This document shows, piece by piece, positions 1,431 to 52,687 of a stretch of DNA of 64,000 nucleotides. Within the stretch, counting starts at the first letter, position 1, and each line of letters begins with the position of its first letter. The translations under genes were made by a program, and so were the position numbers. Where the stretch lies: NCBI RefSeq assembly GCF_001465795.2, contig NZ_CP013659.2, positions 3,441,012 to 3,505,011 on the forward strand, read 5' to 3'. Below the pieces are notes generated by a model. That model searched no databases and was not told the DNA's origin. It worked only from the letters and a program-made list of their open reading frames with translations. This stretch comes from Planococcus rifietoensis (GTDB lineage Bacteria > Bacillota > Bacilli > Bacillales_A > Planococcaceae).

Positions 1431-1680
1431 GGAGGCGATTCCCCCGCTAGCCGGCAACTGACTAAAGAAGCAGACCTAGTTGAACGCACCTTAGGCAATG
1501 AAATCACTCAGCCGCCGAGCGACAAGGGTGAGCCGACGCAGTAAGACAAGTGTCCTTCTTGGCTTGCTGCCAAAGGCCAACCCAAAGCACGGCGGCGACT
1601 ACTCAGGCGAAACTCAAACAAAGGCAAAAACAATTCGACAAGTAAACTCTCACTAGCTTCTAGCTTCTTATACATTTCTT
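1431..1680 (+). repeat. Structured tandem unit U1 (GCGA-loop hairpin plus 86-nt hairpin)
   Basis: The unit opens with GGAG-GCGA-TTCC and carries a long imperfect hairpin at 1511-1596. From outside in, the stems are GCCGCCG/CGGCGGC, GGGTgaGCC/GGCcaACCC, and GCAGTAAGACAAG (1538-1550) with CTTGGCTTGCTGC (1558-1570) closing a 7-nt loop TGTCCTT. Three further units in the window share this layout with compensatory changes (see U2-U4). The GNRA-type GCGA loop appears only when the plus strand is read as RNA, which favours that strand. The unit lies 145 bp downstream of element A, as at the second locus. It could be a non-coding RNA gene or a structured mobile repeat. Confidence 0.6.
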
Positions 1681-1915
1681 CCGGGAAGCGATTCCCCAAC
1701 TAGCTACAGAAGCCGGACTGACTAAACATTCTTCACTCAATGAAATCACTCAGCCGCCGAGCGTAAAGGGGTGAGCCGATGCCGTAAGCCAAGTGTCCTT
1801 CTTGGCTTACGGCTAAAGGCCAACCCAAAGTCCGGCGGCGACTACTCAGACGAAACTCAAACAGAAGCAAAAACAATTCAACATCTAAACTCCCACTATC
1901 TTTTCCAATCATGTC
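1681..1915 (+). repeat. Structured tandem unit U2
   Basis: The tetraloop hairpin GGGAA-GCGA-TTCCC is at 1683-1696 and the long hairpin at 1753-1839 (87 nt). The inner stem GCCGTAAGCCAAG/CTTGGCTTACGGC is perfect over 13 bp. Relative to U1, the third pair has changed from A-T to C-G on both sides. The outer stem GCCGCCG/CGGCGGC is kept. U2 follows U1 head to tail with a period of about 245 bp. Confidence 0.6.
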
Positions 1916-1985
1916 CCGGGAAGCGATTCCCCTACTAACCTGAAGCTCCGATAGAACATCAAACACATTTCCACAAGTTAACCCT
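1916..1985 (+). repeat. Orphan start of a third tandem unit
   Basis: A third GGGAA-GCGA-TTCCC hairpin (1918-1931) is followed by unit-like sequence ending in CTCGCTATCTTC, but the 86-nt hairpin is absent. It looks like a truncated unit. Confidence 0.5.
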
Positions 1986-2321: not shown

Positions 2322-3512
2322 GTGAGAAACGAAATGACGGTAACAGTGAAAGATGTTTTGAGAAATGAATTGGCGAAAGGGTCTCCGCTCATCACAAAAT
2401 ACGGATTGATGAGTGAAATCGATGCACCGGAAGGCACATTGCTGCGCCTCGTTGATAAAGATGGGGAATATTTGGGCACAGGTTATTACGGCGAACAGAA
2501 CAAAGGCGCTGGCTGGATCTTGACGAGAAACCAAGACGAGGCAGTCGGCCAAGCCTTTATCGAACGCAAGCTGGAATTGGCGTTCAGCCGCCGCGAGAAA
2601 TTCTTCAACAATCCGGAGACGACCGCTTTCCGTGTCTTCAACGGCGAAGGCGATGGTTTCGGCGGGTTGACGATCGATTATTATGCCGGATTCTACCTGC
2701 TGTCCTGGTATAGCGAAGGCGTCTATTCGTTCCGCGAAGACGTCGTGGCAGCTTTGGAGAATGTAGTGGAATGCATCGGAATCTATGAGAAAAAACGGTT
2801 TGATACGAAAGGCCAGTATATCGAAGACGATGATTTCGTATCGGGCGAGCGTGGGGAATTCCCATTGATCGTCCAAGAAAATGGCATGAATTTTGCGGTG
2901 TATTTGAACGACGGCGCAATGACCGGCATCTTCCTCGACCAGCGCGATGTGCGCCAGGCGATCCGCACGAAATACGCAGACGGCAAAACGGTGCTCAATA
3001 CCTTTTCTTACACAGGGGCCTTTTCAGTAGCGGCGGCGCTTGGCGGAGCGGACAAGACGACGAGCGTGGATCTCGCGAAGCGCAGCTCGGCGAAAACGAT
3101 CGAGCAGTTCAGCATCAACGGCATTGATTTTGACGAGCAGGACATTCTGGTGATGGATGTCTTCAATTATTTCAAATACGCGAAGCGCAAAAACCTAAAC
3201 TTTGATATGGTCGTCCTCGATCCCCCAAGTTTTGCGCGCTCGAAAAAGCACGTTTTCAGTGCGGCGAAAGATTACACTAATTTGATGAAAGAAACGATCG
3301 ATATTACGGCGCCGGAAGGCTTGATCGTCGCTTCGACCAACAGCGCTTCATTCAATATGAAGAAGTTCACCCAAATGATCGATAAAGCTTTTAAAGATAA
3401 AAACCAGAAATACAAAGTGGTGGAGACTTATAGCCTGCCGGTCGATTTCCATGTCGACAGAAGATTCCCGGAAGGCGATTATTTGAAAGTGCTTTTCCTC
3501 CGTTTACTGTAA
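2322..3512 (+). CDS. Class I SAM-dependent rRNA methyltransferase, RlmI-like (COG1092)
   Basis: A 396-residue protein with an N-terminal PUA-like RNA-binding domain (about 1-80), a central domain and a C-terminal Rossmann methyltransferase. The SAM loop is F-S-Y-T-G-A-F-S-V-A-A (about 228-238) and motif IV is V-L-D-P-P-S-F-A-R (about 300). Relatives methylate 23S rRNA. In E. coli RlmI, a m5C enzyme, the motif VI region reads F-S-C-S; here it reads S-T-N-S-A-S, so the catalytic Cys appears to be missing and a different product base is possible. The GTG start is chosen because AGGA lies 9 nt upstream; an ATG 12 nt further on is the alternative. Confidence 0.85.
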   Translation: MRNEMTVTVKDVLRNELAKGSPLITKYGLMSEIDAPEGTLLRLVDKDGEYLGTGYYGEQNKGAGWILTRNQDEAVGQAFIERKLELAFSRREKFFNNPETTAFRVFNGEGDGFGGLTIDYYAGFYLLSWYSEGVYSFREDVVAALENVVECIGIYEKKRFDTKGQYIEDDDFVSGERGEFPLIVQENGMNFAVYLNDGAMTGIFLDQRDVRQAIRTKYADGKTVLNTFSYTGAFSVAAALGGADKTTSVDLAKRSSAKTIEQFSINGIDFDEQDILVMDVFNYFKYAKRKNLNFDMVVLDPPSFARSKKHVFSAAKDYTNLMKETIDITAPEGLIVASTNSASFNMKKFTQMIDKAFKDKNQKYKVVETYSLPVDFHVDRRFPEGDYLKVLFLRLL

Positions 3513-3533
3513 GGCGGGCTCATAAGCAGAAAC

Positions 3534-3583
3534 AAAGAGCGCAGATGGGCATTCAAAGGCGAATGTGCAACTGCGCTTTTTGT
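3534..3583 (+). terminator. Terminator after the rRNA methyltransferase gene
   Basis: A long stem: GAGCGCAG pairs with CTGCGCTTT and an inner CATTC/GAATG pairs across a 6-nt loop, followed by TTTTT. Confidence 0.75.
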
Positions 3584-3656
3584 GCATTTTATTGCTGGAT
3601 CAGATTGGTTTATAATGGAAAAAAAGAACGTGATTACTTAATTTGGAGGCGGCATA

Positions 3657-4871
3657 ATGGCAAAAGCAATATCCTCATCTTCGCTCGCAGGGAACCCGGT
3701 TTATCCGGTGATGTTCGCGATCGGCGGTGTCCATTTACTGAATGATTCCTTGCAGGCAGTGATTCCAGCAATGTTCCCGATTTTAGAGAAGGACCTGGGC
3801 TTGTCCTTCACACAGCTCGGGCTGATCGCTTTTGCGCTCAATATGGTGGCGTCTGTCTTGCAGCCAGTCATCGGGTTTGCAAGCGATAAAAAGCCGATGC
3901 CTTATGCATTGCCGCTTGGTATGGTGTTCTCGTTCATTGGGATCGCAGGCTTGGCGTTTGCGCCCGAGTATTGGCTCATCTTATTGTCGGTCATTTTTCT
4001 CGGTTTCGGTTCTGCGGTCTTTCATCCGGAAGGTTCGCGCGTGTCGTATATGGCAGCGGGATCAAGACGCGGCTTGTCGCAATCGATTTACCAAGTCGGG
4101 GGCAATTCTGGGCAAGCGCTGGCGCCTTTGATCAGTGCCTTTATCCTGGTGCCGCTTGGGCAACGGGGAGCGGCCTTGTTTCTTTTTGTCGCAGCACTCG
4201 GCATTTTCGTATTATCCAAAATTTCCGCCTGGTACAAGGCACAGTTAGAGCGCGATAAGCTGGAGAAAGTGAAAAAAACGGTGCTGTCTTCTTTGCCGCC
4301 TTTGACGAAAAAGCAGGTGGGCACTGCTTTGACTTTGCTGTTGTTGATCATTTTCGCGCGCACTTTTTACATAACGACGATCACCAGTTTTTATATTTTC
4401 CATTTAATGGATAATTATGGTGTGACGATTCAGCAAGGGCAAATGTTCATCTTCCTATTTCTCGGAATCGGGGCGTTCGGGACCTTTTTCGGCGGCCCAC
4501 TTGCAGACCGCATCGGCCGCAAGCGCGTCATTGTGCTGTCGTTGCTCGTACCGATTCCGTTGGCGCTGGTGCTGCCGTATGTGGCCTTGCCGATTGTCGC
4601 TGTCATTCTTGCCGTATTGGGCTTTTTCCTTATGTTGAGCTTTTCTGTCATGGTCGTCTACGCCCAGGAACTCGTACCGAGCAGAATCGGCACGATGTCC
4701 GGGCTGACAGTCGGCTTGGCATTTGGCATGGGGGCCATTGGAGCGGTCGCGATCGGTGTGTTGATGGATTCGATCGGCGTTTATGAAACGATGGTCATTA
4801 TTTCCGTGCTGCCGATACTCGGGCTGGTTGGCCTCGCTTTGCCGAAAGACCGGAAAATTGCTGCCGCGTAA
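3657..4871 (+). CDS. MFS efflux transporter, fosmidomycin-resistance (Fsr)-like
   Basis: A 404-residue protein with about 12 hydrophobic segments and a basic central loop (about 185-215), the usual MFS two-half layout. The segment G-G-V-H-L-L-N-D-S-L-Q near residue 23 and F-H-P-E-G-S-R near 122 are typical of Fsr-type transporters, which export fosmidomycin and related compounds by proton antiport. The second-half loop D-R-I-G-R-K is the MFS signature. The GGAGG site lies 7 nt upstream, and a -10-like TATAAT lies at 3611-3616. It is followed 32 bp later by an ABC exporter gene, so a joint drug-export unit is plausible. The real substrate is unknown. Confidence 0.85.
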   Translation: MAKAISSSSLAGNPVYPVMFAIGGVHLLNDSLQAVIPAMFPILEKDLGLSFTQLGLIAFALNMVASVLQPVIGFASDKKPMPYALPLGMVFSFIGIAGLAFAPEYWLILLSVIFLGFGSAVFHPEGSRVSYMAAGSRRGLSQSIYQVGGNSGQALAPLISAFILVPLGQRGAALFLFVAALGIFVLSKISAWYKAQLERDKLEKVKKTVLSSLPPLTKKQVGTALTLLLLIIFARTFYITTITSFYIFHLMDNYGVTIQQGQMFIFLFLGIGAFGTFFGGPLADRIGRKRVIVLSLLVPIPLALVLPYVALPIVAVILAVLGFFLMLSFSVMVVYAQELVPSRIGTMSGLTVGLAFGMGAIGAVAIGVLMDSIGVYETMVIISVLPILGLVGLALPKDRKIAAA

Positions 4872-10503: not shown

Positions 10504-10588
10504 AAACGAAAAGCCGAATCGCATGTGGATTCGGCTTGATTTCAAAATCCATAGTTTTTTATAGAGGGTGGAATGCTATGAACCTCTC
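10504..10588 (-). ncRNA. preQ1-I riboswitch with terminator (aptamer 10549-10588, terminator 10504-10537)
   Basis: On the minus strand the aptamer starts AGAGGTTC, has a loop ending in CCACCCTCT and then an A-rich tail with ATAAAAAACTA. This is the compact class I preQ1 pseudoknot, as in B. subtilis queC. It is followed 11 nt later by the stem AAGCCGAATC/GATTCGGCTT and a T-rich tract, then by the queF ribosome site. The layout fits transcription termination when preQ1 binds. Confidence 0.92.
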
Positions 10589-10618
10589 CCGTTGCCGGGT
10601 TATTTAATTTCCTGCCTT

Positions 10619-10732: not shown

Positions 10733-10886
10733 TTCTCGACTTCGTTTCAGGGGGGCTGCTTTCCGAGGGGCGGGTGTTGAGCCAATGTACGGCAAAGAGC
10801 GCCGTACATTTGTCTCGCCAGCCCGCGCGGTCCCTCAGGAGTCAGCCCCCCTTCCACTCCGTCTTTAGTTTTAGAGTGGAAGAGCA
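10733..10886 (+). repeat. Structured intergenic element A, copy 2
   Basis: Nearly the same sequence as copy 1 at 1139-1285. Differences fall in paired positions and are compensated: the apical stem is AATGTACGGC/GCCGTACATT here, and the outer stem has an extra G matched by an extra C. It is followed by units U3 and U4 in the same order and orientation as at the first locus, so the whole cassette is duplicated, about 9.6 kb apart. Confidence 0.75.
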
Positions 10887-11031
10887 TTTCTTCATTCTAC
10901 TTGATAAAAGATGTGAAAATGTGTCGGGCTTTATAGCTCAAGTCATCTTGATTAATAAAGATGTAATTGTAAATTCTATTCCGATTATAAACTTTCTATT
11001 CAAGCATCTTAAACCTAGACGCCACATCCCA

Positions 11032-11275
11032 GGAAGCGATTCCCCCACTAGCCGGCAACCGATTATAGAAGCAGAGCTATCTAATCATGCTCCACACATT
11101 GAAATCTCTAAGCCGCCAAGCGCCACGGGTGAGCCGACGCCGTAAGACAGGCGTCCTTCCTGGCTTATGGCAAGAGGCCAATCCAAAGCAGGGCGGCGAC
11201 TACTAAACTGAAGCACAAATAGAATTACGGAACAATGAGACAAGCAACCCCTCGCTATCTTCTCACACGCTCGAT
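11032..11275 (+). repeat. Structured tandem unit U3
   Basis: GGAA-GCGA-TTCC hairpin at 11032-11043 and a long hairpin at 11112-11197 (86 nt). Inner stem GCCGTAAGACAGG/CCTGGCTTATGGC: the twelfth pair is G-C here against A-T in U1, U2 and U4, and the third pair is C-G as in U2. The outer stem keeps six of its seven pairs (GCCGCC/GGCGGC). GGGT now faces ATCC, giving a G-U wobble. The unit sits between element A copy 2 and U4. Confidence 0.6.
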
Positions 11276-11520
11276 CTGGGAAGCGATTCCCCCGCTAGCC
11301 GGCAACTTTATATAGAAGCAGATCAATTTAATCATGCTCGATACATTGAAATCTTTAAGCCGCCCAGCGCCACGGGTGAGCCGACGCAGTAAGACAAGTG
11401 TTCTTCTTGGCTTACTGCCAAAGGCCAACCCAAAGCAGGGCGGCGAATACCAACATGAAGCTCAACTAATGAACAGGAATGATTCCACAAGCAAACCCTA
11501 ACTATCTTCTTTTCCAGCAA
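11276..11520 (+). repeat. Structured tandem unit U4
   Basis: GGGAA-GCGA-TTCCC hairpin at 11278-11291 and a long hairpin at 11359-11444 (86 nt). The outer stem is GCCGCCC/GGGCGGC: the seventh pair has flipped from G-C (U1, U2) to C-G. The inner stem GCAGTAAGACAAG/CTTGGCTTACTGC has one mismatch. The unit ends just before the 3' end of the P450 gene. Confidence 0.6.
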
Positions 11521-23379: not shown

Positions 23380-23439
23380 GGTCACAAGCTTTTAAATGCG
23401 CGGCAACTTTACAGGACTGCGGATACAAAGCGCCACATG

Positions 23440-23681
23440 AAAAAACGTTGAATAAGAAAAGTAGCGCATGGATAGCTTCTGACAGAGAGCCGGGGAACAG
23501 CTGGAAACCGGTGTTGCACATGCGTGAATGGACTTATGAGTGGCCATCTGAAAAGAAGGCCCGTCTGCCCCGCGTTATTGGGGTTCAAGTGGAAGCTGAG
23601 AGCTTCAAGATGAGGTGGCACCGCGGTCGATCCGTCCTCTGTACGAAATGATCTTATTTCGTGCAGGGGGCTTTTTTTATT
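23440..23681 (+). ncRNA. T-box leader (tryptophan specific) with terminator
   Basis: The 3' half carries the T-box core TGGCACCGCGG (23615-23625), which pairs with the tRNA acceptor end. Stem I includes the AGAGA bulge (23484) and GGAAACCGG distal region. The specifier loop GAATGGAC has the codon TGG (Trp) at 23529-23531. A stem GTACGAAAT/ATTTCGTGC, flanked by CCTCT/AGGGG, with T7 (23634-23679) is the terminator. Uncharged tRNA-Trp would stabilise the antiterminator and allow trpE transcription. Confidence 0.93.
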
Positions 23682-51855: not shown

Positions 51856-51872
51856 AAGTCCATTCAAAAGAA

Positions 51873-52687
<815 letters not shown>

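Follow-up and report, generated by a model that had tools for sequence, protein, structure and literature searches.

What are the tandem structured units that occupy the start of this stretch of the Planococcus rifietoensis chromosome, and is their fold of any use to the cell? The window analysed here covers 64,000 nucleotides (positions 3,441,012 to 3,505,011) of the 3.5-Mb chromosome NZ_CP013659.2. The original prediction, made from the letters alone, described four units of about 240 bp at two loci, each with a GNRA-type hairpin followed by a larger hairpin of three stacked stems, and suggested that the base pairing is under selection. On balance, we favour the view that the units belong to a BOX-like, formerly mobile, modular repeat of the Planococcaceae, that their plus-strand fold is still selected, and that they probably act as RNA.

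Two arrays share one architecture

All features of the two window arrays lie on the plus strand. Array 1 begins with a palindromic leader element, which we call PAL, at 1141-1277 (nhmmer 158.9 bits; 96% identity to the PAL of array 2), and the corresponding PAL of array 2 lies at 10738-10875 (nhmmer 163.9 bits; fold -69.3 kcal/mol, z -6.1). The leaders that separate PAL from the first unit, at 1278-1424 and 10876-11024, were delimited by eye from words shared between loci set side by side. Unit 1 of array 1 spans 1431-1680 (nhmmer match 1431-1670); it starts with the GNRA hairpin GGAG-GCGA-TTCC, read directly in the sequence at 1431-1442, and carries its structured core at 1507-1601 (covariance model R1 102.1 bits; fold -46.8 kcal/mol, z -5.3). 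Unit 2 lies at 1682-1915 (match 1682-1912), with the hairpin GGAA-GCGA-TTCC at 1684-1695 and the core at 1749-1844 (98.9 bits; -55.0 kcal/mol, z -7.9). It is followed by a coreless remnant of a third unit (1918-1999; nhmmer 21.5 bits), which has an orthologue in a relative. In array 2, unit 1 spans 11032-11275 (match 11032-11269), with its GNRA hairpin at 11032-11043 and its core at 11108-11202 (97.0 bits; -43.5 kcal/mol, z -3.3). Unit 2 spans 11276-11520 (match 11277-11515), with the hairpin at 11279-11290 and the core at 11355-11449 (106.3 bits; -47.7 kcal/mol, z -6.1).

The four units and their coordinates were confirmed in the sequence and in an alignment, and so were the covarying pairs that had been singled out. 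Naming the units by their predicted starts (1431, 1681, 11032 and 11276), the third inner pair is A-T in 1431 and 11276 and C-G in 1681 and 11032, while the twelfth is A-T in all except 11032, where it is G-C. The seventh outer pair is G-C in 1431 and 1681, unpaired in 11032 and C-G in 11276. The apical loops are nearly constant, as claimed (TGTCCTT, TGTCCTT, CGTCCTT and TGTTCTT in the same order), and each of the four plus-strand cores, folded alone, takes the three-stacked-stem shape (-43.5 to -55.0 kcal/mol, z -3.3 to -7.9).

The expectation that this shape belongs to no named RNA family was borne out: no family of Rfam 15 reached its gathering score on the arrays. Over the whole window, the Rfam matches were T-box, purine and PreQ1 elements outside the arrays; a search of positions 1100-2000 with E up to 10 gave five chance-level matches far under the cut-off, and none came from five further loci that represent other subfamilies or species. 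The structured element is uncatalogued in that it matches none of the Rfam families checked, and we found no paper on these repeats in the open-licence PMC literature. The ordinary Rfam matches are a T-box leader at 23439-23642, a purine riboswitch at 51860-51961 and a PreQ1 riboswitch at 10545-10592, which directly precedes array 2 on the opposite strand.

The units belong to a dispersed modular family

The count of two loci proved far too low. A one-unit BLAST query gave at least 84 matches in the P. rifietoensis genome (40 of 50 candidates scored), and a sequence profile gave 89 matches in 31 stretches and the window, which, grouped with the help of a second profile, make up at least 38 array loci. 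Among them are 53 near-full units of about 245 bp, all of one subfamily (A), which in this genome repeats with a period of about 245 bp in arrays of one to six units. Other matches belong to diverged subfamilies, which have the core in common but lack the GNRA start. The number of inner units varies from locus to locus and between species at one site, a modularity of the kind described for BOX repeats. With the 53 units read in three frames, stop codons in 156 of the 159 unit-frames ruled out protein coding. The structured repeat is a dispersed modular family. Among the matches listed, no unit falls within positions 1316394-2133148 of the chromosome (about 0.8 Mb, possibly the terminus side), and the at least 84 matches are spread elsewhere. 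Several subfamilies and species also hold nested hairpin modules: a module of about 100 nt (containing ACATCTGC..GCAGATGCGTCGCAAATGAAT) stands in place of the core's apical part or at another point inside the core (L087:4545-4862, L088:13186-13513, L064, L075, L099:776-1106 and L130:996-1320).

PAL, a palindrome of about 138 bp, stands 5' of the first unit and in the same orientation in 27 of the 38 arrays (nhmmer; a few of these matches are weak). Conversely, 25 of its 28 BLAST matches in the genome adjoin the 38 array loci, and the leader between PAL and the first unit holds words that, by eye, are common to several loci. The arrangement of this clade would be PAL followed by one to six units of about 245 bp, each made of a GNRA hairpin and a three-tier core of about 90 nt. 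A BLAST query with one PAL against 121 genomes of the family gave strong matches in P. rifietoensis and one congener (G009) only, a query that diverged PAL forms escape. By eye, a different-looking palindrome stands 5' of several cores in other Planococcus, and in genus g36 a palindrome 5' of the core is clear in two of six loci (partly by eye). Five such palindromes (L047, L048, L049, L050 and L181, from other Planococcus and g36) have the words CCCGCAGGAGTC or GCTTTCC in common and differ in their arms. Similar palindromes are common in other Bacillales. At five loci (L060, L065, L071, L077 and L086), a hairpin module (GGGGCTCGCAGGATGCGAGTCATGCAGCTGATGCG...) is inserted at the same point of one PAL arm.

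Covariation supports selection on base pairing in the core

Selection on pairing, the central claim of the original prediction, was supported by comparisons of units within the genome, of diverse Planococcus cores, of one site between species and of cores of other genera. Across the 53 own units, 96.3% of 1462 pair cells were paired. Two-sided changes occurred in 13 pairs against 5.5 +/- 1.4 in kinship-blind shuffles, and in 80 cells against 27.5 +/- 4.6; none of 500 shuffles reached either count. Sliding the structure by one or two columns reduced the paired fraction to 25-46%. In a set of 50 diverse cores from Planococcus, pairing held in 99.0% of 1050 cells, with two-sided changes in 11 pairs and 111 cells and a covariation of 0.341, compared with 0.151 +/- 0.009 in kinship-blind shuffles. 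These cores came from a pattern search with a built-in condition on inner and apical pairing (87 cores, 70 of them non-redundant and 50 aligned, two of the 70 being antisense and the rest omitted for length), and helix 3 was therefore partly selected for in this set. That bias does not affect the 53 units or the units of the species comparison below, which a sequence profile had identified.

At one orthologous site, we compared 13 of the 14 close species, as the fourteenth (G021) has no full unit there. There, 355 of 364 cells were paired, and 114 double changes were counted where independence would predict 22.6, in 2184 comparisons that are not independent of one another. Identity was 0.899 in the core pairs, 0.853 in the GNRA block and 0.685 in both spacers. 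Spacers jump between types, which indicates that units exchange sequence; some paired changes may thus have travelled together as exchanged blocks, a point that counts against our main reading. In other genera, 110 cores (106 distinct), found and aligned by the model at 56 chosen loci, were 88.0% paired overall and 97.2-99.7% paired in helices 2 to 4; one example pair was UA in 54, GC in 42 and CG in 9. The fit was poor in the outer helix (72.2%) and in one apical helix (72.3%). Overall, the covariation is of the kind that marks structured RNAs and supports a conserved fold.

The core is widespread and its sites are stable among close species

The covariance-model search of the Planococcaceae proposed with the original prediction found the core, with strict filters and at most 16 matches counted per genome, in 95 of 261 family genomes; these belong to 5 of 19 genera and include all 46 congeners. 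The other 166 genomes had no match at these filters. When 150 candidates were scored, six genomes of four other genera held 100, 115, 59, 12, 19 and 2 matches. A pattern scan of named genomes, non-exhaustive and with one pattern, returned 82 stretches, of which the 80 listed were from Planococcus, Planomicrobium, Sporosarcina or Paenisporosarcina. The core is a well-supported structured element with tens to more than 100 copies per genome in one bacterial family, and with its covariance model many intergenic regions that now lack an explanation could be annotated.

Both window arrays have counterparts in all 14 close species. At each site, the core is kept in 13 of them and PAL plus a remnant in one; at site 1, PAL was not seen in one further species. 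Unit number differs between close species at the same site. For the other arrays, 29 orthologous sites were examined in two relatives, and the array persists at 25 of them (L240 was left out as a match to a paralogous gene). The four sites without array, one of them with PAL only, count against the main reading. Among more distant congeners, 31 loci with the same flanking genes, the weakest of which may be paralogues, held no core at that place.

Inverted ends surround the core in Sporosarcina

In genome G231 (genus g27), the cores stand as divergent pairs, one partner often internally deleted, inside elements bounded by TATATATGTTGAA at one end and the reverse complement at the other; of 26 loci, 17 contained both end regions. 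Cores in named Sporosarcina contigs are flanked by 13-bp inverted ends of the same type, starting with TA and mostly 450-700 bp apart, and because identical ends flank the cores in both, we call g27 Sporosarcina. Terminal inverted repeats, a feature of MITEs, are present in g27 and Sporosarcina, and by eye none were seen at the Planococcus arrays. A clean empty site for a Planococcus array was not found, as the array-less sites in two congeners (G011 and G009) differ across the whole 5' flank; like the lack of inverted ends, this counts against the main reading. The dispersal of the arrays and the Sporosarcina carrier suggest past mobility in Planococcus as well. By this account, the repeat would have spread in ancestors as non-autonomous mobile DNA and would now be inherited at fixed sites in the close species compared, its units being gained, lost and exchanged by recombination.

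No candidate mobiliser found support among those considered. The Y1 transposase gene had no core nearby in 18 stretches around it, and a reverse transcriptase (RVT_1) was absent from P. rifietoensis and present in 11 of 46 congeners. As for a plasmid origin, the sole record matched was a 7-kb Planococcus sequence with five listed features, none of them a replication gene, which is probably a stray chromosomal contig, and the Sporosarcina-type element had no plasmid match. No phage match was obtained. Near 2.169 Mb of the P. rifietoensis genome (L349:3130-4320), a single-copy Y1 gene (3445-4050) is flanked, as judged by eye, by about six short repeats like GTCCCTGTGCACCACACAATT in both orientations. 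This is likely to be a RAYT that has a REP of its own and no relation to the arrays.

The plus strand is the likely folding strand

Pairing asymmetry was used to find the folding strand. G-T cells outnumbered A-C cells by 25:4 in one core tally and by 46:19 in the 53 own units, and by 13 to 4 in the stem of the GNRA hairpin of these units. Since G-T is in excess of A-C mismatches, the plus strand was taken as the folding strand. The tetraloop, which had been pointed out as a plus-strand feature, is of GNRA type in 53 of 53 units (46 GCGA, 6 GTGA and 1 GTAA). In the cores of other genera, the asymmetry over all 28 pairs was weak (G-T 74, A-C 57), which counts against the main reading; in helices 2 to 4 only, it was 33 to 7. 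A second point against it is that the single minus-strand core examined is likewise stable when folded (z -5.7), so that folding energy alone cannot fix the strand. Taken together, the G-T excess and the GNRA loop favour the plus strand, whether it folds as RNA or as single-stranded DNA, and the best reading is that this plus-strand fold is still under selection. Action as RNA is what we infer, given that single-stranded DNA of the same strand would give an identical asymmetry.

It is unlikely, in our judgement, that the fold works as single-stranded DNA, with the hairpins of the top strand serving as recognition sites of a transposase or recombinase and with no RNA function. Such a role would suit a dispersed, high-copy sequence that occurs in a carrier with inverted ends. 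G-T pairs are tolerated in DNA hairpins of one strand too, and 29 of 46 congeners, and 12 of the 14 close species, carry a gene for a Y1 transposase. Against this, none of 18 stretches around Y1 genes holds a core (E up to 1), the Y1 gene of P. rifietoensis is flanked by the other repeat described above, and 17 of the 46 congeners have cores but no Y1 match. Moreover, the arrays were unmoved in the 25 of 29 site comparisons, and a GNRA loop is a typical RNA motif.

Gene context suggests action at transcript ends

According to a simple gene finder, none of the 38 arrays lies between divergent genes, compared with 34 of the 165 gaps that these regions contain. The gene on the 5' side is co-oriented with the array in 31 of 38 cases (18 fully co-directional and 13 convergent) and oriented against it in 7. 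The co-directional context as such, 18 versus 7, is only weak, which counts against the main reading. The gene finder misses a small gene beside array 1 of the window; with that gene counted, the locus becomes convergent. By the same gene finder, the arrays avoid promoter regions and are enriched at the 3' ends of genes, as expected of a BOX-like repeat.

Returning to the favoured reading of a BOX-like repeat that acts as RNA, these positions, 3' of genes and mostly in the gene's direction, suggest that the units would act once transcribed. The folded domain would probably be held by a conserved partner, and the likeliest target would be the ends or the stability of transcripts, a role that has been proposed for BOX repeats. 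Action as RNA at transcript ends would, we think, be the most likely mechanism. A promoter scan recognised no plus-strand promoter in either window array region, which counts against the main reading and also bears on a stronger proposal, namely that the arrays are domesticated host genes for a true non-coding RNA with a dedicated function, PAL being its 5' domain or start region. We regard that as doubtful. Fixed sites in close species, a slowly evolving core, the constant position and orientation of PAL and the presence of the core in every congener would all be expected of such genes. The missing promoter, a unit number that varies between close species, copy numbers and sites that vary widely between genera, and the 166 family genomes without a match at the strict filter speak against them. 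As for mere debris of a dead repeat, with pairing inherited from the founders after selection had ended, the intergenic positions avoiding divergent genes, the freely varying unit number and the decay of some copies would fit, but the matched-pair changes and the slower evolution of paired core positions than of their own spacers at one orthologous site, the confinement of all 53 loop variants to GNRA and the 97.2-99.7% pairing of the central helices in the model-found set of other genera make this very improbable.

Tentatively, one may go a step further and see the PAL arrays as RNA genes in which a leader hairpin and tandem GNRA-plus-core domains form a large RNA of variable length that holds one conserved factor of the Planococcaceae. 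If true, a domesticated repeat would have given rise to multi-copy non-coding RNAs of a new bacterial class, with a core that has moved between unrelated carrier elements. Fixed sites and paired changes in close species, set against a mobile-looking carrier in a sister genus, would make the family a clean case for studying when a parasitic repeat turns into a host RNA.

Relation to known repeats

The family may work like BOX or bcr repeats, to which we liken it by description and not by sequence. The BOX repeats of Streptococcus pneumoniae (boxA-boxBn-boxC; PMC3049150) are likewise short, interspersed, intergenic and modular, with variable inner units. They too have a predicted RNA fold, show a bias towards convergent genes and are thought to be non-autonomous mobile DNA. 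Unlike them, the Planococcus family has a unit of about 245 bp, a GNRA hairpin, a covarying core of about 90 nt and a palindromic leader of 138 bp; it belongs to another genus and host family, and its core occurs in at least five genera in different carriers. The repeats bcr1-bcr18 of the Bacillus cereus group are likewise multi-copy intergenic repeats of the Bacillales, some of them MITE-like; bcr10 and bcr18 have a conserved secondary structure, and about half of the copies are transcribed (PMC3446304). Tandem arrays behind a palindromic leader and a three-tier core do not figure in the parts of that description compared here.

REP/RAYT systems likewise combine intergenic hairpins in high copy number with a Y1 transposase gene that occurs once in the genome. 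The family differs from them in that the 18 stretches around Y1 genes are free of cores and in that the resident Y1 gene has another short repeat at its side, which speaks against membership. REPs are also 20-40 bp long (PMC3733652), versus about 90 nt for the core. The elements of g27 and Sporosarcina resemble MITEs as outlined in PMC3049150, being mostly about 450-700 bp long with 13-bp inverted ends that start with TA; the Planococcus arrays are unlike MITEs in this respect, no such ends having been seen around them. In Sporosarcina sp. BP05 (L265:6230-7600), four cores follow one another on one strand at an exact spacing of 184 bp, with four more on the opposite strand just before them, and this cluster is a young tandem expansion facing its own mirror image.
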